Shown here one piece after another: positions 18,971 through 49,214 of a stretch of 49,214 nt of DNA. The DNA comes from an uncultured Bacteroidota bacterium (GTDB taxonomy: Bacteria > Bacteroidota > Bacteroidia > AKYH767-A > OLB10), in contig CAINEC010000007.1 in assembly GCA_903847585.1 (NCBI GenBank), forward strand, positions 72,112-121,325, given 5' to 3'. The notes beneath the pieces were generated by a model, which saw only the letters and a program-made list of their open reading frames with translations, was not told where the DNA came from and did no database searches. The first letter of the stretch is position 1; each line of letters opens with the position of its first letter. The translations under genes were made by a program, and so were the position numbers.

Positions 18971-20020
18971 ATGTTTCGATTTCAAAACCCTGAGATGATT
19001 TATCTTTTCGTTACAGCATTACTGTTAGTAGTGTTGTTCTGGATGTTCATTCGCTGGAAGAAAAAAGCGTTAGCTCGTTTTGGTAAAATGGAAATCATCA
19101 ACAATCTGTTTCCAGAAGTTAGCCTTACACGTCCTACCTTGAAATTCTGGATTAGATGGGTTGCTTTTATTTCATTAATTATCGGTTTATGCGGACCATT
19201 AATCGGATCAAAGTTAGAAGAAGTAAAGCGTAAAGGTTCAGATATTATTATTTGTTTAGATGTTTCAAATAGTATGCTTGCTGAGGATTTAATGCCTAAT
19301 CGATTAGAGCGTGCTAAGCAGGCAATAAGTCGATTGATAGATAAGCTAGAAGGTGATCGAGTTGGTATTATTGTTTTTGCTGGTGATGCCTATACGCAAT
19401 TGCCAATCACCACAGATTACGGTGCAGCAAAATTATTTCTGTCTCAAATAAATACGGATATCGTTCCTACACAAGGAACTGCTATTGGTGCTGCCATCGA
19501 TCTTGCAACGACTTCTTTTACAGATACAATAAAGAAGAACAGTGCAATAGTGATTATTACGGATGGAGAAAATCACGAAGATGATGCAATTGAAGCAGCG
19601 AAGTCGGCCAGTGAACAAGGTGTAAAAGTTTATACTATTGGAATGGGCTCGGAGCAGGGTACTCCAATTCCGATTTATAGTAATGGGGCCAAGGTGGGTT
19701 ATCGTCAGGATAACTCAGGACAAACCATCATGACAAAGTTGAATAGTGTGATGCTTGAGGATATTGCTGAAGCAGGGAAGGGAAAGTTTATTCACGCTAC
19801 CAATAGTGATGATGGATTATCAATCGTGTTAAAAGAATTAAGTGCTTTGGATAAAAAAGAATTCAAAGCCAAAATGTATACAAGTTTTGAAAACCAATTT
19901 CAGTTCTTTCTTGCAATCGCATTGTTTTTATTTATCATTGATTTTATCATTGGAGAGAACAAGAGTAAAGTAGTTGCAAAATGGAATTTATTTGGAGAAA
20001 ATAAAAAGCAGGACTTATGA
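18971..20020 (+). CDS. batB: vWA domain membrane protein BatB
   Basis: The 349-residue paralogue of the preceding gene has the same layout: helices near residues 10-27 and 62-80, a vWA domain and a C-terminal helix (FFLAIALFLFIIDFIIG). The MIDAS residues are D97, S99 and S101 in LDVSNSM, with TAIGAAID and IITDGENHED completing the metal site. The LAEDLMPNRLERAK segment after the MIDAS is shared almost exactly with BatA (LAEDFKPNRIESAK), so the two arose by duplication and probably form a complex. It overlaps batC by 4 bases. Confidence 0.9.
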   Translation: MFRFQNPEMIYLFVTALLLVVLFWMFIRWKKKALARFGKMEIINNLFPEVSLTRPTLKFWIRWVAFISLIIGLCGPLIGSKLEEVKRKGSDIIICLDVSNSMLAEDLMPNRLERAKQAISRLIDKLEGDRVGIIVFAGDAYTQLPITTDYGAAKLFLSQINTDIVPTQGTAIGAAIDLATTSFTDTIKKNSAIVIITDGENHEDDAIEAAKSASEQGVKVYTIGMGSEQGTPIPIYSNGAKVGYRQDNSGQTIMTKLNSVMLEDIAEAGKGKFIHATNSDDGLSIVLKELSALDKKEFKAKMYTSFENQFQFFLAIALFLFIIDFIIGENKSKVVAKWNLFGENKKQDL

Positions 20021-20712
20021 GAATTATTGTTTGTTTGATTTTCGTTTCAATGCATTTATGGTCGCAGGCACAAAATGCTAATTCTACTATTCGTCGTGGT
20101 AATGGTGCTTATAACAATAAAAAGTTCAAAGATGCAGAGATCGATTATAAGTCGGCTGTATCTTCCGACCCTAAAAGTTTTGCTGGAAATTACAATTTAG
20201 GTAATGCCTATTATAAGCAAGATAATATGGAAGAGGCAGGCAAGCAATACATGCAGTCTGCTGGAACAACTAAAGATGCTATTGAGCAATCGAAGGCTTA
20301 TTATAATCTTGGTAATACTTATTTAAAAGCCGAAAAGTATCAGGAAAGTATCGATGCTTATAAAATGGCCTTACGGCAAAATCCAAATGATGAAGATGCT
20401 CGTTATAATTTAGCGTATGCTTTAACAAAATTGAAAGCGCAACAAAACAAAAATAATAAGCAGGGTAAAAATCAGGATCAGAAAAAAGATCAGCAACAAC
20501 AACAACAACAACAACAAAATAAAAATCAAGATCAGAAAAAAGATCAGCAACAGCAACAACAACAACAACAGAAGCAGCAAGCACAGCCTAAAATTTCTAA
20601 AGAAGAAGCTGAACGTATGTTACAAGCATTAAAGAATCAAGAGCAGAAGTTGCAAAAGAAAAATGCTAAGAAGTTTGATGCAACAGGTGGAAAACCTGAA
20701 AAAGAGTGGTAA
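20017..20712 (+). CDS. batC: TPR protein BatC with poly-glutamine tail
   Basis: The 231-residue protein has a signal peptide (ending LWSQAQ) and three or so tetratricopeptide repeats (residues about 22-140: NYNLGNAYYKQDNMEEAGKQ, AYYNLGNTYLKAEKYQESI, DARYNLAYALTKLKAQ). These are followed by a low-complexity tail of Gln, Lys, Asn and Asp, then a short KISKEEAERMLQALKNQEQK helix that is a common end of BatC-like proteins. It probably scaffolds BatA and BatB in the periplasm. It is the last gene of the operon; no batD or batE follows, since the convergent aroK gene ends 3 bases later. No terminator hairpin is seen. Confidence 0.88.
   Translation: MRIIVCLIFVSMHLWSQAQNANSTIRRGNGAYNNKKFKDAEIDYKSAVSSDPKSFAGNYNLGNAYYKQDNMEEAGKQYMQSAGTTKDAIEQSKAYYNLGNTYLKAEKYQESIDAYKMALRQNPNDEDARYNLAYALTKLKAQQNKNNKQGKNQDQKKDQQQQQQQQQNKNQDQKKDQQQQQQQQQKQQAQPKISKEEAERMLQALKNQEQKLQKKNAKKFDATGGKPEKEW
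20467..20574 (+). repeat. Two 54-bp tandem copies with CAA/CAG runs inside batC
   Basis: The unit encodes KNQDQKKDQ plus a run of glutamines, period 18 codons, starting at 20467 and 20521. The copies differ at few bases and contain eight or more consecutive Gln codons each, so the tract is a likely site of length variation. Confidence 0.85.
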
Positions 20713-37800: not shown

Positions 37801-38395
37801 TCCTGTTGTGGTTTATAATTCGCCGGGCGTATATCCTGTAGCGTTAGTAGTAAACAATTCAAATGGAACAGACTCTATCTATTATAATTCATTCGTCGAA
37901 GTATTGAGTCCTGCTAATTCATTTAACATATCCATTTATGTGGATTCGTTAGTTGCACCTCAAGTCGGCTTAGGTTATCAATGGTATTATAATAATGCCC
38001 TTATTCCTGGAGCAAATTCAATGGTGCTTAAGAATTTTTTACCAGGGTTATATGCGGTTGCTGTTACAGATTCCAACGGATGCGTAAATTATTCTACGAC
38101 TGCAGCGGTTGTGATAGGTCTTCAAGAACAAATCTCTGAGTCATTAAACATGGAGGTGTATCCTAATCCTGCAAAAGACCAAACAACAATCAAGTTGAAT
38201 TCATCTTTAGCGGGCAATGCTAACGTGATAATTACCGATTTAAATGGTAAAAGTGTATTCGAGAAGGTTGTTAATGTGAAAAAAGGAATTCAGGAATTTA
38301 CAATTGATTGCAATCAATTCAATTCAGGAATATACCTTGTTACTTTGCAAAGCCAAGAAATGATTAGCAGCAAAAAATTAATGATCATTCATTAA
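34865..38395 (+). CDS. Large BNR/VPS10-like and PKD-domain surface protein, T9SS type A
   Basis: The product is 1176 residues from ATG 34865, which gives the signal peptide MRKILSIIIILLSFSHQINA; a frame to 34775 is open but hydrophilic. The N-terminal 660 residues form beta-propeller-like BNR repeats with Asp-box motifs (KTNDGGQTW, SDDRGDTW, STDGGNSF, STDGGITW, SADRGQTW). Then come a PKD domain (CENNQIQFTNLSTG), a MAM/choice-of-anchor-J-like module (GFENNFSYDW to YLDNIRVDA), a second PKD domain (CSGESITFVDQSSG) and a short Ig-like piece. A T9SS type A sorting domain (VYPNPAKDQ to KLMIIH) ends it. Likely a surface or released adhesin or hydrolase; no glycosidase catalytic motif was seen. Its stop codon overlaps that of the convergent gene. 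Confidence 0.9.
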   Translation: MRKILSIIIILLSFSHQINAQIAGNWTCKGPIAFPTNASGQIHGIGRCTQIKFHPVDSSVMYTTTASGGLYKSNNNGTSWNVMGTDMLPNAQCASVCIDYTNDSVIYLGTGDPNYYGTSYGIYKTVNAGGTWTLMNSSIGNRMAVEILMDPNDHHILIAATNSGIWKTNDGGQTWVCKRIGGQFTDMVWKANAGTSTLYAATFDAVFRSDDRGDTWFQITNGLTPPGSNGGQGIRLGVSPADSNIVYVAMNCDEGTIFKSTDGGNSFTTVYHNPSQSLTGYDANGGGQGNYNFTCGVDPDDPNTVYIASHVVWKSTDGGITWTQLTQWWANLHTDMHHILVNPYNHSQLWEANDGGVWLSTNGGSFWTPKSDGIISTEIYHAGQSKTREDLISIGTQDNGELFHSLTTWKCNRGGDWGARCDFDYTHNNYVYYLSENQRRRLVPNGGGVSINLPVKCDGNTRISFCPSDTNVAYAGRDTLCVSTNIYNGSITWSIVSDLGHTIRGIKVNPLNANVVYVVTDNARVYRIEDAKSGNPQISIFTLPYATNVAASIEVVKSDTNIIYVTCNSRIYRSADRGQTWTNYTSNYPGLNLINVVNDYYSSNEAIYIANAAGVYYRDSSMSNWLNYSGGLPTIAQIRDLIIYNDGTGLSKLRVAYYGKGVWESSLNKNDIPVADFMSDKKSICENNQIQFTNLSTGALSVQWYFQGGNPASSTAQNPNVTYSQPGDYLVSLLVNGSSGSNTVVRQGYIHVSAAHALSLNEGFENNFSYDWSLTDDGEDGIKWNLSSNAGAYGQSLNSVYFDNYSYDVNGRRDELITPRFKTAGIADALLKFDVAYARYSPDYYDTLAVMVSTDCGASFTQVYARGYTDLATSGDTTGFYVPGSNQWRMDSVSLTPFLNQNEIIIAFQNRGHYGNCVYLDNIRVDAVSIASPVANATAFNKQVCSGESITFVDQSSGAPTSRLWYFAGGVPSTSNLQNPVVVYNSPGVYPVALVVNNSNGTDSIYYNSFVEVLSPANSFNISIYVDSLVAPQVGLGYQWYYNNALIPGANSMVLKNFLPGLYAVAVTDSNGCVNYSTTAAVVIGLQEQISESLNMEVYPNPAKDQTTIKLNSSLAGNANVIITDLNGKSVFEKVVNVKKGIQEFTIDCNQFNSGIYLVTLQSQEMISSKKLMIIH

Positions 38396-41300
38396 TGCAC
38401 TAATTGTAATTTCTTTGTCGTGCTTCCATTATTACTGATGAAACGTAAGATGTAAAATCCATCAGCATAATTAGCTGTTGAAATTACTTTGCTTGTTTCA
38501 TTATTAACCTCGAAGTTGTCAATTGTTTTACCACTGGCATCGATTAATTCAATAGCATTAGTATTAGCTGGGAATATTAATTGACAATTATTGTTTGCAG
38601 GGTTAGGGAATAGAATGAAATCTGTTTTGTTATCGTTTTCATTTAAACCAACCACACCTTGTAAGGTAATATCATCTAATGAAATTCCTGGAGCTGTTAA
38701 ATTAATATCACTTTTAAACACAAACTTCAATTGAAGGATATTCGCACCCGTTAGATTGCTGAAGGAATAACTGCAGTTTTTCCATCCATTTGAAAGGCCC
38801 GTCCAACCGATATTATTTCCAAACAGGGTCGTGTTATACCAATTGGTTGCATTGGGATCGTTAATACTTCCAAGAACTTCCCAATTGCCGCCATCTAATG
38901 AGTACTCTAAATAAGTTCCATCTGCGGCATATTCAGTAGCGTAGTTCAACCAGAAATCAATATTCACTTTAGTGTAATTAGATATTACAAATAGTGGTGA
39001 GTATAAACTTGCATACGCCACATTAAAGTAAGGCGTGCTTAAGTTTATATCCCAGCAATTAATTCCAGAGTGTGAGAAATTTGTTGGATTTATACTAGGG
39101 CTTCCTAATTCCCATTGAGTATAATTAGTATAAGAGCTATCAAACCAACCTTGATCACCATTTTCAAAATCGTAGGAGTAGGTGAGATAGGCGGTAACGA
39201 TGGCGAATGAATTTAATTGAATAGTATCATTACTTTGTATAGCATCTAAAGGCCAATCAATATATGCTGTTAAAAGAATAGTTCCTCCCACAGGAGTAAA
39301 TGATGGTAATGTCACTATGGTTGTTGAGTCTTTGGGTAAATTACCTGACCAGTTGTAATTGAACGGTACTCCGTTGTTGTTAGTATACTTAATTGAAAGA
39401 TTGGTAAGTGGATATCCTCCTTGATTTTGCAACACTACTTGAACGGGAGTCGGGATTCCTTGACCAATATTATTTTGCGGCGATGCGAATGCAATTAAAG
39501 CAGCATCATGTTCTGGTATGGCGTAAAAAAACAAGGTGACACTGTTATTTTGTTGTTCCATATCAAATGGCCAATTGATATAAATGGTGAGCACATTCCA
39601 TCCAGCGACTGGAGTAAAATTAGGAAGTGTAACAAGTGTAGTGGAGTCGAGGGGTAAATTACCACTCCAATTTTGATTTACTACTTGTCCATTGTTAAGC
39701 TGATATTGAATGGAAAGGTTAGTGATGTTTATGACACCTTGATTTTGCAAATACACACTAAGTGGGTAGCCATATCCAGCAAGTAAGGTGTCATAAGTTG
39801 CTGCGGTTAATAAGGCTCCGTCATATTGAGCTGCTTGTTTAATACTGAAATCATCAATCGAAACTCCATCTACTTGTAAGCTATTGTCAGATGTAAATGC
39901 ATAACGGAATTGCACAGATGGCTGATTCGCGAAAGCATCTAATTTATATGTTGATTCTTTCCAACTTAATGAATTGCCATCCCATCCCGGTAGCTGAGAA
40001 GAATTAAGTGATGCATTGGTATACCAATTTGTTCCATTCGGATCTCCTAAAAATCCTAGCGTTCCCCATCCAAAACCATAATTAATATCCATTCTTAATC
40101 CATCCCATCCTGCCTCTGTATTCCGGTTTTGCCAAAAGCTTAATTTGGGATGTACTGAATTAGATAAATCAAAAACCGGTGTATATAAAAACGCATTTGC
40201 TAATGGGCTATAGGGTGATGTTAAGTTAATGTCCCACGCATTGTTTCCTGAGTGTGTTCCGAATGTTGTGTTATAGTTCGGATATCCTAATTCCCAAATA
40301 GAACCAGGCGATGCAGAATTGTCAGCATACCAATTTGAGTTTCCTGATTCAAAATCGGTAGAATAATTTAAACTGATTGGTGAAGTTCCATTAACAACTG
40401 TACAAGATGTATCATTGCTCGTATTTATATCACCGAACAATTGGCAATAGCCACATAAATTATTTATAGGTTGAAGAACAGTAAAGCCAGGAAGTAAATA
40501 TCCTGCTGTTGCTCCGGGATTCAAATTTACTCCGTTAATTGTGGTTGAATAATACACTGTGCCATTAAGTTTATAGCCCAATATAAAACTATTAATTACT
40601 GTGGACCCTAAATTACTTACTGTTATTCCAATATTACCTGTATTAAAACCAATTGGAAATGCATTGGTCGATGTATTTGTAGAAACAGTTCTCAAATCAA
40701 CAACACCAATATTTGATAAATAAAAATCATCAATGGAAACTCCATTTTTGTTGATGAAATTATCACTATGCATCACAAAACGAAATTGCAGATTACCAAC
40801 AAATCCATAGCTAGCTAAATTGTATTCCGCACTTACCCACGCATTACTGTAGCCTGTCCAGCAAGGAGAACCAAAAGAAATTACACTCGTTGTATTATAC
40901 CAATTTACTCCGTTAGGGTCGTTGTAAGTCCCAAGGATATTCCACGTTAATCCGTTATCGTTAGTATATTCAACATGCATCCCGTCATAATTAGCTTCCA
41001 CCTCGTATCGTAATTTAAATTTCAATTGAGTGAAAGGAGTAGCTGATGTATATACTGGGGAATATAAATAGGCTTGCGCACTGTCACCATAATCGGAAGT
41101 TAAATTAACATCCCAACAACTATTGCCAGAGTAAGCTCCAACAAATGCTGCAAAATTTGGATAACCTAATTGCCATTTTGTAACGGTATCTAATGAAGTA
41201 GCTGTCCATCCAAGGCTTCCACTATCAAAATTTTCAAAAACAGGATAAGTTGTAGATAGCGTTAAATTACTACAAAGAGAGTCATTAGAAAATTCATAGT

Positions 41301-42180
41301 CGTTTCTTCCTCTCGCAAAAACACAGATAGAATTAACGGTTGTGGGAATGTATGCAGTTCCAATTGTGATTGTATCGGTAGCACCTGCTGCAATTGTCCT
41401 TGCTGCAATTGACGTGGTTGTAACTCCATTTAAAACATATCCAACAATAAAAGAGTCGAGTGGAATGTTAGAGTTGTTTTTTACTTGAATTTTAATTGGC
41501 GAATTGCTTCCGGTATTTGTTGGATTTAAAATGGCGATTGATTGCATATCATTTAATACCCGATTACTTTGGGTAAGACTAATCTGGTCAATTAAAATAC
41601 CTGGTTGACTACTTCCAAAAATATAGGAGTTAAAAACGAATCTTACTTTAATACTATCGATATGTCCCAGGTAGTTAAGGTGTATTCCGGACTGCTTCCA
41701 TCCGCCTGATGTACCAGTAAATCCAGGTTGTGTAGTTGCATAAACCGAAGTAGTATTGTACCAATTATCTGCGTAGAGTCCATTCGTTAAACGCTGCCAG
41801 GAAGTTCCATTGGTAGAATACTCCAAGTGAAAACCATCAAATCCGAAAGGCAAATATCTAAATTGACTAAACGATAAGTAGGGGTCGCTCAAGTTGCTTA
41901 TTTGCATCATAGGGGACGTTAAATAAGCGATGCTATTACCGCGATAGCCTGAGTCTAAATCTGTACCCCAACAGCTTGGAGCAGTTAAAGCTGGCTGAAA
42001 TCCCGATGCTGATGGCGTTCCTCTTTCCCAGGAGGTTCCACTTTGTGTGTAAGAAACCCATCCTTCATTGGTCCCTGAATCAAAATTGTAGAGATAGGAT
42101 TGAGCCTTAGCGGTAAAAGAGGCAGCGATTATAATTATTAAAATAGAAATTTGCTTTCGAAGTAATCGGGTAATTTTCAT
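38392..42180 (-). CDS. Giant T9SS type A protein with four choice-of-anchor-J-like modules
   Basis: The 1262-residue exported protein has a signal peptide (residues 1-27). Four homologous modules of about 170 residues begin near bases 42095, 41245, 40372 and 39180. Each starts with a FDSG/FESG/FENG-x-x-W pattern, has W-x-x-G-x-P, then WDxNL or equivalent, LYSP/YTP and a closing DDF/DDI strand, as in MAM-like anchor-J domains. CARDB-like Ig linkers fill the gaps, with one after modules 1 and 2 and two after module 3 (NWSGNLP-DSTT twice). The sorting domain is LFPNPANNN to KLQLVH. It probably forms a long extracellular fibre or adhesin. Ligand unknown. Confidence 0.9.
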   Translation of the reverse strand: MKITRLLRKQISILIIIIAASFTAKAQSYLYNFDSGTNEGWVSYTQSGTSWERGTPSASGFQPALTAPSCWGTDLDSGYRGNSIAYLTSPMMQISNLSDPYLSFSQFRYLPFGFDGFHLEYSTNGTSWQRLTNGLYADNWYNTTSVYATTQPGFTGTSGGWKQSGIHLNYLGHIDSIKVRFVFNSYIFGSSQPGILIDQISLTQSNRVLNDMQSIAILNPTNTGSNSPIKIQVKNNSNIPLDSFIVGYVLNGVTTTSIAARTIAAGATDTITIGTAYIPTTVNSICVFARGRNDYEFSNDSLCSNLTLSTTYPVFENFDSGSLGWTATSLDTVTKWQLGYPNFAAFVGAYSGNSCWDVNLTSDYGDSAQAYLYSPVYTSATPFTQLKFKLRYEVEANYDGMHVEYTNDNGLTWNILGTYNDPNGVNWYNTTSVISFGSPCWTGYSNAWVSAEYNLASYGFVGNLQFRFVMHSDNFINKNGVSIDDFYLSNIGVVDLRTVSTNTSTNAFPIGFNTGNIGITVSNLGSTVINSFILGYKLNGTVYYSTTINGVNLNPGATAGYLLPGFTVLQPINNLCGYCQLFGDINTSNDTSCTVVNGTSPISLNYSTDFESGNSNWYADNSASPGSIWELGYPNYNTTFGTHSGNNAWDINLTSPYSPLANAFLYTPVFDLSNSVHPKLSFWQNRNTEAGWDGLRMDINYGFGWGTLGFLGDPNGTNWYTNASLNSSQLPGWDGNSLSWKESTYKLDAFANQPSVQFRYAFTSDNSLQVDGVSIDDFSIKQAAQYDGALLTAATYDTLLAGYGYPLSVYLQNQGVINITNLSIQYQLNNGQVVNQNWSGNLPLDSTTLVTLPNFTPVAGWNVLTIYINWPFDMEQQNNSVTLFFYAIPEHDAALIAFASPQNNIGQGIPTPVQVVLQNQGGYPLTNLSIKYTNNNGVPFNYNWSGNLPKDSTTIVTLPSFTPVGGTILLTAYIDWPLDAIQSNDTIQLNSFAIVTAYLTYSYDFENGDQGWFDSSYTNYTQWELGSPSINPTNFSHSGINCWDINLSTPYFNVAYASLYSPLFVISNYTKVNIDFWLNYATEYAADGTYLEYSLDGGNWEVLGSINDPNATNWYNTTLFGNNIGWTGLSNGWKNCSYSFSNLTGANILQLKFVFKSDINLTAPGISLDDITLQGVVGLNENDNKTDFILFPNPANNNCQLIFPANTNAIELIDASGKTIDNFEVNNETSKVISTANYADGFYILRFISNNGSTTKKLQLVH

Positions 42181-42343
42181 TGTAAAGGTCTTGCGTTGAA
42201 GTCACTAAATTAAGGAACAAAATTGACATCTCGCTATATAGATGCATACACTCATTTTTAAAACTGGTTAACTATTTAATAGCCATACTTTGGTAATTCA
42301 AAAATTATTGTTTTATTTGTATTACGCATTAACCTAAAACACT

Positions 42344-43723
42344 ATGAAAAAACTATTACTAGTTCTAGTTGCTTGCTTAACCTTTGCAACGAGTTCATTT
42401 GCTTCTCACATGATGGGAGGACAAATTACTATTTCGCATAATAGCGGAATGGATTATCATTTGAAGTACACAGCTTATCGCGATATGACAGGTATTCCTA
42501 TCGGGACAGTAGCAACAATTTATTTTGTTGACTCTACGAGTGGAGCTAATTTCACTTTAACTATTCCTTATGATTCATTGGTAACGGTATTAGTACCAGG
42601 AGTTGAGGAGTATGTTTATGAGACGGATGTTACTTTCCCAAATACGGGAAATTGGGCAATTCACTACGAAGAGTGTTGCCGTAATGCAGCTATCTTGAAT
42701 ATGATGTTGCCAGCTGGAGAATCTCACTATTTCTACACTAATTTCATGGTAGATACTTTGAATTCTTCACCTGTATTTTTAAATCCTCCAATTGTTTTAG
42801 CTCAGGACAGTGTTCCTTTCTACTACAATCCATTACCATTCGATGCAGATGGTGATTCTATCGCATGGTCATTGGATATTCCATTATCTAGTAATGGCAC
42901 ACCAGTAGCAGGTTATACATTACCTCCATCTGATTCATTATTTCCATTCAACATGGATCCTTTAACAGGTGAAATCACATTTTTACCAAATACATTAGGT
43001 AACTTCCAGGTTTCACTTCGTGTGAAAGAATACAGAAATGGCGTTCAGATTGGCGAGATTACTCGTGACATGCAAATAATTGTTGTTCCAAGTTCAAACC
43101 GCCCTGCTAACGTAAGTGTAAATTCAAACACGTTCCCTTACAATTCTAAAAACTATACGATTGCTCCAGGAGCACCGTTTAATATGACGGTTTCAGTAAT
43201 TGATATTGATGGACAGAATTTACGTTTATCAGGTGCTGGTGAACCATTCTTATTAGCAAACAATCCGGCTGTATTTACTCCAATTAATGCTGCTGCTTGC
43301 GCTGGTGGAACATTATCATGGACACCAACAGCTGCTCAAGCTAGAACAGCTCCTTATGTAATTGGTATTCGTGTTTCTGAAGATTTTAACGGACAAGTAT
43401 TCCAATCTGACTTATCAGTTTCATTAAGAGTCGGTAATTCAGCAGGATTGGGTTCAATAAATGCAAATTCAGCTTTCACTTTATCTCCAAACCCATCAAA
43501 AGGAGCATTCAACTTACAATTCACAACAACAACTTCAGAGTCAGTTAGAGTAAGCGTAATGACTGTAACTGGTAAAGTAGTTAGTTCATTTGTAAACTCT
43601 CAAATTGTAAATGGAGTTAATGTTATCATGGTTAACGATCTTGGATTATCAAAAGGTATTTACATGGTTCAATTAGAACAAAACAATCAGAAAATCGGAG
43701 TTCAACGTTTAGTGGTTGAATAA
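42344..43723 (+). CDS. T9SS type A surface protein of the ASHMMGG type
   Basis: The 459-residue exported protein has a signal peptide ending at SSFA followed by SHMMGGQITISH, a mature N-terminus shared with many Bacteroidota surface proteins that begin (A)SHxxGGxL/I and contain an ECCRN motif; here EECCRNAAI is near residue 110. Beta-sandwich modules with cadherin-like or He-PIG-like features follow (DADGDSIAWSLDIP, MDPLTGEITFLPNTLGNF, IDIDGQNLRLSGAGEP). The type A sorting domain is LSPNPSKGA to QRLVVE. Its codon use is noticeably regular (AAC, ACA, GTA rich), which could mean high expression. A strong terminator follows. Role probably in surface structure or gliding; unproven. Confidence 0.88.
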   Translation: MKKLLLVLVACLTFATSSFASHMMGGQITISHNSGMDYHLKYTAYRDMTGIPIGTVATIYFVDSTSGANFTLTIPYDSLVTVLVPGVEEYVYETDVTFPNTGNWAIHYEECCRNAAILNMMLPAGESHYFYTNFMVDTLNSSPVFLNPPIVLAQDSVPFYYNPLPFDADGDSIAWSLDIPLSSNGTPVAGYTLPPSDSLFPFNMDPLTGEITFLPNTLGNFQVSLRVKEYRNGVQIGEITRDMQIIVVPSSNRPANVSVNSNTFPYNSKNYTIAPGAPFNMTVSVIDIDGQNLRLSGAGEPFLLANNPAVFTPINAAACAGGTLSWTPTAAQARTAPYVIGIRVSEDFNGQVFQSDLSVSLRVGNSAGLGSINANSAFTLSPNPSKGAFNLQFTTTTSESVRVSVMTVTGKVVSSFVNSQIVNGVNVIMVNDLGLSKGIYMVQLEQNNQKIGVQRLVVE

Positions 43724-43743
43724 TTGATTCTTTATAAAATAAG

Positions 43744-43774
43744 AAAGGGAGCTTTTATAAGGCTCCCTTTTTTT
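43744..43774 (+). terminator. Intrinsic terminator after the ASHMMGG-type gene
   Basis: Stem AAAGGGAGC/GCTCCCTTT (43744-43752 with 43762-43770) with a 9-base loop, then T to 43774. Confidence 0.92.
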
Positions 43775-44290
43775 ATTGCCATATTGGATTGACTAATGTT
43801 TTTCTGTTTTGATTTACAAATTTTTATTTATCGACATCCATTGCTTATTTATCATTATTGTTTAATGGTTAAGAACACGATAAATGCGTATTGGTAAATA
43901 TTCGATTGAGTAAGCAATAGAAGTTGAATTTGAAAAATACGTCTAAAGGTTATTATTACTGCATTTCATTATCGACAAAAATGGTAGTTTTTTCTCTTTT
44001 ATAACTAAGTAGAATCTTCTAGGCATTAGCTGATTAAACTTTGAGGCTTTTTCAATTAGTAAATTGGAATTGATGTATTGAATAACTTAGTAATGATCTA
44101 TTCAGATGGCCTGAAATAAAGTAATCATTTCTCAAATTAAATTAGTTGTAAATTATGGTCAAATCAAGAATAGTAAATGGAATTGGAGTATTTCCGCAAG
44201 TGAAAGAAGTATGTTGCTAATTCTGTATTAATTTGAAGTTTGATTTGTCTATGTATTGAAGATTGGCATATAGGTTTGGAAGATTTAATC
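43775..44290. other. Gene-free AT-rich stretch
   Basis: About 515 bases between two terminators. I see no convincing coding frame, RNA gene, repeat or promoter here. It is the longest gene-free stretch in the window and could be a decayed gene, but no similarity to its neighbours is evident. Confidence 0.6.
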
Positions 44291-44321
44291 AAAAAAAAAT
44301 CCCCGCCATAAGCGGGGATTT
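44291..44321 (-). terminator. Intrinsic terminator of the Ig/PKD T9SS gene
   Basis: On the minus strand, stem AAATCCCCGC/GCGGGGATTT (pairing 44312-44321 with 44297-44306), loop TTATG, followed by a run of T. It lies 20 bases after the stop at 44342. Confidence 0.92.
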
Positions 44322-44341
44322 AAATTCAAAATAAATTGAAA

Positions 44342-46231
44342 TTATTTTACAATCTGCATTACACCAGTTTCAGAAGCTGTAAGTACTTTAACAGAATAAA
44401 TTCCATTAGCGAACTGACTAAAATTGATTGTTTCATTGAACTTATTTCCATTAGCAGAAGAAACTTGCTTAGAATATACAACTTGTCCGATTGCATTAAC
44501 AATAGTAATGATTGCAGTTGCTTCATTAGATGCAAACTGAACTGTTGCCATATTAGATACTGGGTTTGGGAAGATGTTCATTCCGATTGCAGCTGCATTG
44601 TTTTCTAATCCTGTTAATTGAACAGTGATTGTTTTTACAATTGTATCTGCACCACAAACACCGTTTGAAACGATAAGTGTTACGTTATAAGTTCCAGAAG
44701 CAGAATAGCTATAAGTTGGATTTTGAGAGAAGGAAGCGTTGCCATCACCAAATAACCATAACCAACTGATGGCTCCATTTGAACTATCAGAGAAAGCTAC
44801 CACTTGATTATTGGCAGTATATCCGAAGTTAGGATTTACACCAGGAACAGTGTTAACAGTAATACTATTGGTAGAAGTACATCCAGCTTGATTTGTAGCA
44901 GTTACTGTGTAAGTTGTAGGACCATTAACAGTTACGATTGTATTATTTCCAGTAGCTCCTGTGCTCCAAGAGTATTGGGTTCCAAATCCACCACCGCCAC
45001 CACCTTGCGTGAAGGCGCGTAATAAAGTTGTGTCGCCATCACAAACAGTTGTTCTATTTGCGAATAAATTAAAATTAGGGGCATTTGAAATGTTAACTGT
45101 AACGTTGCGTGTTCCTGTACATCCAAATGCATCAGTTCCAGTAATTGTGTAAGTAGTTGGAGCAGTTGGTGTAGCATCTACTGTACTTCCTGTTGTTGTA
45201 TTTAATCCTGTTGCAGGTGACCAAGTATACGTATCAGCACCAGTTGCAGTAATTGTAACTGTATTTCCTGCGCAAACAGTAATTGGACTTGTTGGAGTAG
45301 TGGTAACAGTCGGATTTGGGTTAGGATTAACAGTAATTGTATAGTATGCACTATCTGTTAGTCCTGATGCCGTACAACCAACATAACAACGGAAATAAGT
45401 AGTTGATGTTAATGTTCCAGAGTTAATAGAACTTGTAGTTCCAAATGCTGTCCAAGGACCATTAACAGAATCTGTTGTTGATTCCCATTGGTAGGTAATA
45501 CCTGCAAATCCTGAAGATCCTCCACTAATAGTTAGGTCCGCTGATCCACTTCCTCCACAAATCAAAGATGCTGTAGATGATATAGAGCCTGCTGATGGTT
45601 GCCCACTGCATTGTGTTGGATATTCATCCCATTGAACATCATCAACAAACATATTACTTCCTCCCTGGCTAGTACCATTTAGGATAATATAGTTCGTGTT
45701 TGTATTGAAGTTTGCGGGAATATTAAAAGTGTATAAATACCATCCGTTAGCTAAAACGTTATTAGGTAAATTATAATAACGGCTACGCGCTACCGCTCCT
45801 AAACGTGTTGCACCTGCAACCGATGGAGAAGTGTTTACCATTACAGTAATACTGTCGCCTGCTGTTGATAAACTGTCACGGTACATATACATACTGAAAG
45901 TAGGGGTAGCTCCATTTGTTTGAGAATAATCAATTACTGGAGTAATCAAAGCTTGTTGAGTACCTGTTTGTGTTAAGGTGATTGAAAATCTCGCCATTGC
46001 AGCACCTGTGTGAGGCATAATTAATGTGGAGTTTCCACTTGGGCCGTTTGTTCTTCTAACCCAAATTGGATTTCCAATAATAGGATCTAATGACCATCCA
46101 GCAGGTTGGAAGGTAGTACCATCAAAACTTTCTGTTTTGATTACTTGTGCTTTTGAATCGTCGCTGACAAATGATGTCATAATTGCAATGAATACAAATA
46201 GCTTTACTAAATTTTGTAAAGGTGTTTTCAT
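44342..46231 (-). CDS. T9SS type A protein with MAM-like, Ig-like and PKD domains
   Basis: The 629-residue exported protein has a hydrophobic N-terminal signal (LVKLFVFIAIMTSFVSDDSKAQ). Domains in order: a MAM/choice-of-anchor-J-like module (ESFDGTTFQPAGW to MFVDDVQWDE, residues about 30-205), three Ig-like modules with paired cysteines (CGGSGSADLTISGG, CAGNTVTITATGADTYTW, CDGDTTLLRAF), and a PKD domain (FSDSSNGAISWLWLFGDGN). A sorting domain (IFPNPVSNM to MQIVK) ends it. A six-glycine run at the third Ig module is notable. It is a single-gene unit with a good terminator. Likely a surface adhesin or stalk-forming protein. Confidence 0.9.
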   Translation of the reverse strand: MKTPLQNLVKLFVFIAIMTSFVSDDSKAQVIKTESFDGTTFQPAGWSLDPIIGNPIWVRRTNGPSGNSTLIMPHTGAAMARFSITLTQTGTQQALITPVIDYSQTNGATPTFSMYMYRDSLSTAGDSITVMVNTSPSVAGATRLGAVARSRYYNLPNNVLANGWYLYTFNIPANFNTNTNYIILNGTSQGGSNMFVDDVQWDEYPTQCSGQPSAGSISSTASLICGGSGSADLTISGGSSGFAGITYQWESTTDSVNGPWTAFGTTSSINSGTLTSTTYFRCYVGCTASGLTDSAYYTITVNPNPNPTVTTTPTSPITVCAGNTVTITATGADTYTWSPATGLNTTTGSTVDATPTAPTTYTITGTDAFGCTGTRNVTVNISNAPNFNLFANRTTVCDGDTTLLRAFTQGGGGGGFGTQYSWSTGATGNNTIVTVNGPTTYTVTATNQAGCTSTNSITVNTVPGVNPNFGYTANNQVVAFSDSSNGAISWLWLFGDGNASFSQNPTYSYSASGTYNVTLIVSNGVCGADTIVKTITVQLTGLENNAAAIGMNIFPNPVSNMATVQFASNEATAIITIVNAIGQVVYSKQVSSANGNKFNETINFSQFANGIYSVKVLTASETGVMQIVK

Positions 46232-46388
46232 GATTGATTTTAGATATTCATTTTATAGATGTGAAATTAGCAAAAAGTCAATATTATAATTTATTATTTA
46301 TTATTTATGGCTATTATCTAAAATTTATCTGATTAGGGAAAATTAGTGTTCAAATAAGCAAATTGATTAGATAGAAAAGGTAGAATAC

Positions 46389-46418
46389 AAAAAAGCCACT
46401 CTTAAGAGTGGCTTTTTT
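46389..46418 (-). terminator. Bidirectional terminator of the CYQ-repeat gene
   Basis: Perfect palindrome AAAAAAGCCACTC-TTAA-GAGTGGCTTTTTT, 13 bp, with a T run on either strand. It lies 20 bases after the minus-strand stop at 46439. Confidence 0.92.
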
Positions 46419-46438
46419 GTCAATATTTAAATCTGATT

Positions 46439-49214
46439 TTAATGAATAACTTCGACTCTTTTAAGTTCAATCCCTTCATCAGTGATTGTTCTTATTAAGT
46501 AAATGCCATCATCGTAAGATGATAAATCTAAAATTCGCTCATTACCGAAAGTAGAAATAATCGATCCTTGCAAATTCAAAATCTCAATTTTTTCTATTGA
46601 TTTTGATGTTTCAATATTTAAAATGCCATTTGTTGGATTAGGATAGATTTTAGTTGTTGAATTTACAACATTGTCAATTATTCTACTAGTAGAACATGAG
46701 TTAACATATTTTATTCTAAAGCCGCTTGATCCACAATCATTGTTTGCTTTCACCAATATCTTTCCTCTTACAGTACCAGCAATAACTTGAATACTTGTGG
46801 TTCCTTGTCCAGAAATAATTGTCCATCCTGCTGGTTTTTGCCATGTGTAAGATGTAGCACCTGGGACAGGTAAAATACTATAGGTTACAATTTGATTTGG
46901 TGTAGTATTATAAGGTCCTGTAATTGTACCTGGCTTATCAGGGTAAAGCGTAATTGAAAGACATCTTGCTGGGCTTGATAAACAACCGTTAGAAGCTGAA
47001 ACAGTAATTTGTGGGCCTGTACAAGTATTGCAAGAACCTAAAGTCGAACCAAAGTTTACAATAATTGAATTCGTGCCTTGTCCACTAACAATTGTTGCAC
47101 CCGAAGGAACCACCCAGTTATATGTTAAACCAATAACATTCGTAACTGAATAAACGACATTTTGCATGTTGCATAAGTTATTTGTTGGTCCTGAAATAAT
47201 AGATGGCGTAGCTGGCGCATTACCACTAGGTGCTATAGTAAGTGATAGCACATAGTCTTGGCAATTTGAATTGTAGTAATAGTTACCTGATTGTGTATAG
47301 GTTTGTCCATTAATGTTCCAAGTGTAGCTGGTGCATGCTGACGCATTAGTAGTAATAGGTGGGTTTGGAGTTCCAGTAACATCCCAAGAGCATGTTGAAG
47401 TATTAAAGTTCGCAGTTTGGTAACAAGCTAATGTTGGCTGAGCAGGTTGCGATCCAGTTACTACCCAAGAACAAGATGTATTGTTAAATGTTGCAGTTTG
47501 ATAACATGCTAATGTCGGTTGAGCTGGTTGAGTACCACTCACAATCCAACGACAATAAGTATTGCTAAAATAAGCAGTTTGATAACAAGCTAATGTTGGC
47601 TTAGGAGGCTTACATCCGGTAACTACCCAAGAGCAAGTAGTATTATTAAATGTTGCAGACTGATAACAAGCCAAAGTTGGCTGAGTCGGTTGTGAACCAG
47701 TAACCACCCAAGAACAAGAGGTGTTGTTGAACGAAGCTGTTTGATAACAAGCTAAAGTCGGTTGTGCAGGCTGAGAACCCGTTACCACCCAAGAACAAGA
47801 AGTGTTATTAAACGAAGCTGTTTGATAACAAGCTAATGTTGGTTGTGTAGGTTGTGAACCTGAAACATCCCAGGAGCATGTATTAGTATTAAAGTTTGCA
47901 GTTTGGTAACAAGCTAATGTTGGTTGTGTAGGTTGTGAACCTGAAACATCCCAAGAGCATGTAGTCGTATTAAAGTTTGCTGTTTGGTAACAAGCCAATG
48001 TTGGTTGTATAGGTTGAGAACCAGTTACCATCCAAGAACAAGAGGTGTTGTTGAACGTAGCTGTTTGATAACAAGCTAAAGTCGGTTGTGTAGGCTGAGA
48101 ACCCGTTACCACCCAAGAACAAGAAGTATTATTGAATGATGCAGATTGATAACATGTTAGCGTTGGTTGAATTGGTTGAGTACCAGTCACAATCCAACGA
48201 CAATAGGTATTGCTAAAATAAGCTGTTTGATAACAAGCTAATGTTGGCTTAGGAGGTTTGCATCCAGTAATAACCCATTGACAAGTAGTATTATTAAATG
48301 TAGCAGATTGATAACAAGCTAAAGTAGGTTGTGCAGGTTGTGATCCGGTTACATCCCATGAACATGTCGTTGTATTAAAGTTTGCTGTTTGATAACAAGC
48401 TAAGCTTGGTTGTGTAGGTTGTGAACCTGTAACATCCCAAGAGCATGTATTAGTGTTAAAGTTTGCAGATTGGTAACAAGCTAAGCTTGGTTGTGTAGGC
48501 TGTGTTCCAGTTACATCCCATGAACATGTTGTAGTATTAAAGTTGGCAGTTTGATAACAAGCTAAACTTGGTTGAGCAGGTTGTGATCCTGATACATCCC
48601 AAGAGCAAGTTGTCGTATTAAAGTTGGCAGTTTGATAACAAGCTAAGCTTGGTTGTGTAGGTTGTGAACCTGTAACATCCCAAGAGCATGTATTAGTATT
48701 AAAGTTTGCAGATTGGTAACAAGCTAAGCTTGGTTGTGCAGGCTGTGTTCCTGTTACATCCCATGAACATGTTGTAGTATTAAAGTTGGCAGTTTGATAA
48801 CAAGCTAAACTTGGTTGAGCAGGTTGTGACCCAGTTACAATCCACGAACATGATGTATTGTTAAATGTTGCAGATTGATAACATGCTAGCGTCGGTTGAG
48901 TTGGTTGAGTACCACTCACAATCCAACGACAATAGGTATTGCTAAAATATGCTGTTTGATAACACGCTAATGTTGGCTTAGGAGGCTTGCATCCAGTAAT
49001 AACCCATTGACAAGTAGCATTATTAAATGTAGCTGATTGGTAACAAGCTAAACTTGGTTGCGCAGGTTGTGATCCTGTAACATCCCATTGGCATGTTGTT
49101 CCGTTGAAGTTTGCAGATTGATAACAAGCTAAATTTGGTTGCAATGGTTGTGATCCTGTAACATCCCATGAACATGTCGTTGTATTAAAATTTGCAGTTT
49201 GATAACAAACTAAA
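46439..49214 (-). CDS. T9SS type A protein with a long CYQ-repeat array, 5' end beyond the window
   Basis: Partial gene: the frame runs unbroken to base 49214, so the true start lies outside; the TTG at 49144 is merely a codon inside the repeats. The visible part is about 925 residues. The first 615 or so are 23 copies of a 27-residue repeat (consensus QPTLACYQTANFNTTTCSWD followed by VTGSQPT) with two cysteines and two conserved aromatics each. Then follow a module with SYTWNINGQTYTQSGNYYY, two PKD-like modules (NLCNMQNVVYSVTN, TPNQIVTYSILPVPGATSYTW) and a T9SS type A sorting domain (IYPNPTNGI to RVEVIH). By composition it is a secreted, disulfide-rich fibrous or adhesive protein. Function not known. 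Confidence 0.9.
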   Translation of the reverse strand, partial: LVCYQTANFNTTTCSWDVTGSQPLQPNLACYQSANFNGTTCQWDVTGSQPAQPSLACYQSATFNNATCQWVITGCKPPKPTLACYQTAYFSNTYCRWIVSGTQPTQPTLACYQSATFNNTSCSWIVTGSQPAQPSLACYQTANFNTTTCSWDVTGTQPAQPSLACYQSANFNTNTCSWDVTGSQPTQPSLACYQTANFNTTTCSWDVSGSQPAQPSLACYQTANFNTTTCSWDVTGTQPTQPSLACYQSANFNTNTCSWDVTGSQPTQPSLACYQTANFNTTTCSWDVTGSQPAQPTLACYQSATFNNTTCQWVITGCKPPKPTLACYQTAYFSNTYCRWIVTGTQPIQPTLTCYQSASFNNTSCSWVVTGSQPTQPTLACYQTATFNNTSCSWMVTGSQPIQPTLACYQTANFNTTTCSWDVSGSQPTQPTLACYQTANFNTNTCSWDVSGSQPTQPTLACYQTASFNNTSCSWVVTGSQPAQPTLACYQTASFNNTSCSWVVTGSQPTQPTLACYQSATFNNTTCSWVVTGCKPPKPTLACYQTAYFSNTYCRWIVSGTQPAQPTLACYQTATFNNTSCSWVVTGSQPAQPTLACYQTANFNTSTCSWDVTGTPNPPITTNASACTSYTWNINGQTYTQSGNYYYNSNCQDYVLSLTIAPSGNAPATPSIISGPTNNLCNMQNVVYSVTNVIGLTYNWVVPSGATIVSGQGTNSIIVNFGSTLGSCNTCTGPQITVSASNGCLSSPARCLSITLYPDKPGTITGPYNTTPNQIVTYSILPVPGATSYTWQKPAGWTIISGQGTTSIQVIAGTVRGKILVKANNDCGSSGFRIKYVNSCSTSRIIDNVVNSTTKIYPNPTNGILNIETSKSIEKIEILNLQGSIISTFGNERILDLSSYDDGIYLIRTITDEGIELKRVEVIH
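47365..49214 (-). repeat. 81-bp tandem coding repeat array, about 23 units
   Basis: The unit is 81 bases (27 codons), with no indels between units. Three places carry a variant pair (GCKPP ending followed by a KPTLACYQTAYFSNTYCRW unit): near 48980-49060, 48250-48330 and 47600-47680. They are nine and eight units apart, so a higher-order block of about 650-730 bases has been duplicated. A three-unit block (243 bases) is also repeated (units 5-7 and 8-10 counting from 49141 downwards). The array continues past the window edge. Confidence 0.95.

Follow-up and report, generated by a model that had tools for sequence, protein, structure and literature searches.

The Periscope Proteins SasG, Rib and Sgo_0707 use sortase anchors. 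They are made of tandem, similar units with an N-terminal head and a C-terminal anchor, and their copy number changes by recombination (PMC8201768). A survey of fibrillar adhesin-like proteins built a range of Pfam families as stalk domains, and PKD_6 (PF19408) falls within that range (PMC8286594). In gliding Bacteroidota, SprB-type adhesins are giant, repetitive surface proteins exported by the T9SS. The array protein described here resembles all three. Its head and anchor are separated by tandem units that closely resemble one another, an order taken from a sister gene, and we propose that its copy number likewise changes by recombination, compared here at the species level. Whereas the named Periscope Proteins use larger folded domains, this protein is built of units of 27 residues with two cysteines, and it ends in a T9SS tail. 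As in the fibrillar adhesin-like proteins, the array adjoins PKD_6, but its unit, called CYQ here, is not in Pfam. Export by the T9SS and a giant, repetitive surface protein are shared with the SprB-type adhesins, and in one protein (locus L044) SprB repeats (PF13573) and an array of the variant CYE type occur together, but the SprB repeat itself differs, and a gliding phenotype is not known for the window organism. We favor, with a probability of about 0.68, the reading that the CYQ unit is an undescribed stalk module, probably disulfide-stabilised, of T9SS-exported fibrillar surface proteins whose length is altered by unequal recombination.

The window, a 49,214-nucleotide stretch (G000:C7:72112-121325), runs to the last base of the 121,325-base contig C7, so the array gene abuts the very end of that contig. 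According to the ORF list and translation, the C-terminal part of the array protein occupies 924 codons on the minus strand (46439..49213), and this frame has no closed 5' end, since the contig ends at window base 49214. In order, it encodes 23 CYQ units, an SYTW-type element, a pair of PKD_6 domains and the T9SS sorting tail; the copy number is a lower bound. The sorting tail (Por_Secre_tail, 46460..46648, minus strand) scores 43.2 bits with PF18962 (cut-off 27) and 37 bits with TIGR04183 (cut-off 23), and the better of the two PKD_6 stretches lies at 46718..46942 on the same strand (E 2.4e-40 for the protein). Judged by 138 T9SS sorting tails and by nine genes of the PorP family that score above cut-off, the secretion system is present in the genome. 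Five T9SS-tail genes stand in a row at window positions 38156-49213, with frames of ~1207, 1269, 461, 636 and 924 codons. The SYTW-type element (SYTWxxNGQTYTxSGxY...CQDYxLxLTI), which also has two cysteines, flanks most arrays in the genus of the window organism and has no Pfam match in protein P0001 (residues ~605-650).

The array itself comprises 23 tandem units on the minus strand (47372 (approx.)..49207), spaced at exactly 27 residues and recovered by TRF with a period of 81 and scores of 1508 and 1275, far above chance. Unit 1 starts at 49207 and unit 23 at 47425, the latter being repeat-like for residues 1-18 before it diverges. The unit consensus is CY[EQ]TATFNxTTCxW[DV]VTGTQPxxPTLA, and C1, C12, W14, G18, P21 and P24 are invariant across all 22 complete units. 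Between units, the median dN is ~0.16 against a dS of ~1.1, with synonymous sites near saturation and the protein conserved; the repeat is therefore old as a protein feature, and purifying selection maintains it. Three units on the minus strand contain a GCKPPKP motif with a third cysteine at position 19, namely unit 3 (48965..49045), unit 12 (48236..48316) and unit 20 (47588..47668). Each is followed directly by an AYFSNTYCRW partner on the same strand: unit 4 (48884..48964), unit 13 (48155-48235) and unit 21 (47507-47587). The first-pass annotation had described a T9SS protein with at least 23 in-frame 27-residue repeats, two invariant cysteines, a conserved tryptophan and three-cysteine GCKPP units recurring after nine and then eight units, and on each of these points it was correct. 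Elsewhere in the window, a tandem repeat of 54-bp period that contains a CAA-rich run lies at 20466-20570, within the plus-strand frame 20017-20712.

The whole array gene is found within one contig in a sister species (CAMBYJ010000010.1; G002:C10, locus L047), where a signal-like N-terminal segment is followed by a large head, 22 units, two PKD_6 domains and a T9SS tail. The tails of the two species are 89% identical, and the downstream neighbor of the sister gene is the orthologue (87% identity) of the gene downstream in the window, a 629-residue PKD/T9SS-tail protein (44342..46231, minus strand). Given the intact sister gene and the shared neighbor, the assembly has almost certainly divided one gene, of which the window holds the C-terminal portion and whose array counts at least 28 units. 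A head 88% identical to that of the sister is present once in the genome of the window organism, at the end of contig C1 together with five units. By sequence comparison, this is almost certainly the missing front half of the window gene; it lies at G000:C1:18725-21468, encodes a head of ~770 residues and the first five units, and starts with a stretch, MKKNILHSELIKKVFLLITIGFISIQGFSQ, that is hydrophobic as judged by eye and is a candidate signal peptide. No joining overlap was found between the ends of C1 and C7, and the join of the two contigs rests on orthology. At the species level, the unit count is thus 22 in the sister and at least 28 in the window organism.

Copied blocks are visible within the window array. 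A 215-nt block, equal to 2.65 units, occurs on the minus strand at 48615..48829 (units 5.7-8.3) and again three units further on at 48372..48586 (units 8.7-11.3) with 97.7% identity, and its score was matched in 0.3% of unit-order shuffles. A 207-nt block that includes the GCKPP pair occurs on the same strand at 48869..49075 (units 2.6-5.2) and, with a nine-unit lag and 93.7% identity, at 48140..48346 (units 11.6-14.2). The three-unit duplication that the first-pass annotation had noticed corresponds to the first of these blocks, and its proposal that the array grew by crossing-over of blocks is supported, as block duplication, by both copied blocks, the sister comparison and the nearest-unit analysis. 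Its higher-order period fared worse: mean unit identity by lag in the window array was highest at lag 9 (p=0.018 for lag 9 taken alone), and a strict period was not significant over the maximum of all lags (p=0.21).

Mean unit identity is ~74% inside the window array and 69% against the sister array, and the unit most similar to a given window unit lies in the same gene in 21 of 22 cases. Window units 20, 21, 22 and 23 match sister units 19-22 at 78, 91, 94 and 90%, and the remaining rows scatter. By these identities, the interior units have turned over independently in both species, with only the last four still corresponding. The three AYFSN units of the window are all closest to sister unit 20 (90-93%, versus 75-78% for sister unit 12), which fits multiplication of the window pairs from one ancestral pair.

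Structure prediction, which the first-pass annotation had suggested for three to six units, gave a row of hairpins in both AlphaFold2 runs. With six units, a hairpin appeared in every unit and one of five models was confident; with three units and an alignment of 48 more diverse rows, the best model reached a pLDDT of 97.2 and a pTM of 0.70, and four of five models had a pLDDT of at least 95. Strands were predicted at unit residues 4-8 and 13-17 in both runs, and in the three-unit model, the linkers were modeled as confidently as the strands. The array is thus predicted to be an ordered row of beta-hairpins with ordered linkers, and AlphaFold2 can be overconfident or wrong on repeats, as documented in a study that covers perfect repeats and beta-solenoids (PMC11795689). 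Mutual information gave a signal mostly in the linker, with cross-strand pairs ranking from 16 to 227, so covariation for the hairpin register is weak; W7 and Y14 co-occur in 4 of 13 Y14 units, from three loci. Of the disulfide-pinned solenoid or stalk that had been proposed initially, the stalk-like repeat is supported by both runs, whereas the disulfides we infer from the conserved cysteines. Solitary units that keep both cysteines favor pairing within one unit. Against a C1-C12 clamp inside the unit, the predicted strand positions do not obviously make these two residues neighbors, and two terminal units that lack C1 yet keep C12 fit poorly with simple within-unit pairing. Pairing between units, suggested by those terminal units, was considered and is countered by the solitary complete ones.

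Repeats of this type recur in Bacteroidota, and we found neither a family model nor a published description that matches their sequence. A scan of other genomes, another follow-up proposed at the outset, covered one genome per species and returned 212 stretches encoding relatives. The repeat was present in 17 of 396 genomes sampled from the class. Nearly all of the 77 loci that we fetched are labeled Bacteroidota. A CYE array in a MAG labeled Bacteriovorax (L108; JAURXW010000533.1) is probably on a misbinned Bacteroidota contig. Among 1,007 units collected with a pattern that required both cysteines, C1 and C12, conservation was high at W14 (99%), G18 (99%), P24 (100%), F7 (96%), P21 (95%) and N8 (94%), and the spacing was 27 or sometimes 28 residues. 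A profile search that did not require the two cysteines turned up few further cases, and several of these sit in frames rich in errors. Arrays range from 1 to ~103 units and adjoin domains as varied as SprB, PKD_5, M14 peptidase and HYR; this placement beside unrelated domains is as expected for a modular spacer.

Several loci have peculiarities of their own. At L136 (7304-15954 of G356:C1, a one-contig genome), an 84-bp unit is repeated ~103 times with 99% identity and with parts in another frame; either the array was homogenised recently and changed frame, or the assembly or sequencing is in error. Several arrays on one chromosome (CP058707.1; L074, L080, L083, L087, L093, L097) are interrupted by frame changes that are probably sequencing errors of the long-read assembly. 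At L070, HYR-like domains end in strands (TATDVDGNTAICTFDV; ORF residues 1171 and 1467) that resemble the CYE unit and continue directly into arrays. From this resemblance, the terminal hairpin of the HYR domain is a possible origin of the repeat; a comparison of HYR with the unit profile gave a probability of 2.9% using only two HYR sequences, and the look-alike ends occur at one locus.

Searches of Pfam, NCBIfam and the PDB returned no family that fits the unit, and literature text searches with the motif and related terms found neither a description nor functional data for the repeat, nor an experiment on any protein that carries it. In the PDB sequence search, made with the protein and with the profile, nothing relevant appeared; an odorant-binding protein came closest (E 0.4). 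The AlphaFold2 models likewise had no significant match in structure searches (Foldseek best E 0.044 for six units and 1.2 for three; VIA Z 2.7). The top structural matches, the Entamoeba Gal/GalNAc lectin heavy chain and beta-microseminoprotein, are cysteine-rich beta proteins. Both were insignificant (Foldseek E ~0.04-1.2, VIA Z at most 2.7) with no sign of common origin with the unit, and this lack of a structural match is no proof of a new fold.

Two observations that would have overturned the initial interpretation, an assembly artefact and a match to a characterised domain, were checked directly. Five contig ends of the window's genome fall inside arrays of this kind, and two of them, the start of C162 and the end of C130 (L056, L058), have an exact 125-bp overlap within a CYE array, as might be expected if the array were an artefact or a collapsed repeat. 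Those two ends, given their shared sequence, probably belong to one gene, and contig C155 ends in a third array. The window units differ from one another, at the mean identity and dS given above, and keep the frame throughout, and because a single contig spans the sister array and similar arrays occur in isolates and in one-contig genomes, we regard the array as real and an artefact as scarcely credible; copy number alone is doubtful. The whole protein does exceed the gathering cut-offs of two families, with 37.7 bits for DUF285 and 41.5 bits for fn3_4, as would a diverged representative of a known family such as BspA-like DUF285 (PF03382) repeats or an fn3 domain. Isolated short arrays either lose both matches or score 66 unrelated families at similarly weak levels. 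DUF285 was absent from two array segments and appeared in 5 of 48 three-unit segments, with a best E of 0.002 among those 66 families. With its period of 27, two cysteines per unit, a predicted row of hairpins and an insignificant unit-profile comparison, membership of such a family is very improbable.

A more serious competitor, though still unlikely, is that the units do the binding themselves, to glycans, metal or other cells, and are multiplied to raise avidity instead of forming a passive stalk. The aromatic residues Y2, F7 and W14 are conserved, and stalk and adhesive roles may overlap (PMC8286594), but the conserved residues would equally be needed to hold a tiny two-stranded fold, and both the range of copy number, from 1 to ~103, and the combination with unrelated domains speak against binding as the main role. 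It is also conceivable that the extra cysteine of the GCKPP units, placed 8-9 units apart, cross-links neighboring stalks into covalent fibres or a sheath. The cysteine count is odd in 3 of 23 window units, and two units of the sister gene, eight apart, likewise have three cysteines, one of them with its extra cysteine at position 13. Only 7 of the 1,007 units are of this kind and 5 of those 7 belong to the window-sister gene pair; their rarity elsewhere, the varying position of the extra cysteine and the resemblance of the three window copies to block duplicates of one ancestral pair make such cross-linking a long shot. We hold equally little expectation for a bolder reading, in which the unit represents a separate structural class: a disulfide-clamped, ordered hairpin of minimal size, 27 residues, that forms rigid rods of up to ~100 units, with regularly spaced third cysteines stapling neighboring rods into covalent fibres in this genus.

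Under the stalk reading that we prefer, the region would code for part of a fibrillar surface protein exported by the T9SS, namely its array, its PKD-like domains and its sorting tail. Each 27-residue unit would fold as a small beta-hairpin, probably with a C1-C12 disulfide clamp inside the unit, and would be joined to the next by an ordered linker, short and rich in proline. Together these hairpins would form a stalk that keeps the N-terminal head off the outer membrane, to which the chain would be anchored through its C-terminal T9SS signal. Unequal recombination between near-identical blocks would then change the number of units, so that stalk length may differ among lineages. The combination of a T9SS tail, PKD_6, a modular array and a head at the opposite end fits a head-presenting stalk. 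The stalk role, the anchoring and an adhesive function of the head are what we infer from this arrangement; Pfam recognised no adhesive domain in the head of the complete sister protein, and divergent heads can be missed by such searches.

The CYQ unit is a very small repeat with a confidently predicted fold, and arrays of it break assemblies at their own sites. A family model for the repeat would annotate many unnamed T9SS proteins. The arrays also offer a natural test of whether recombination tunes stalk length in Bacteroidota, as it does in the periscope proteins of other bacteria.
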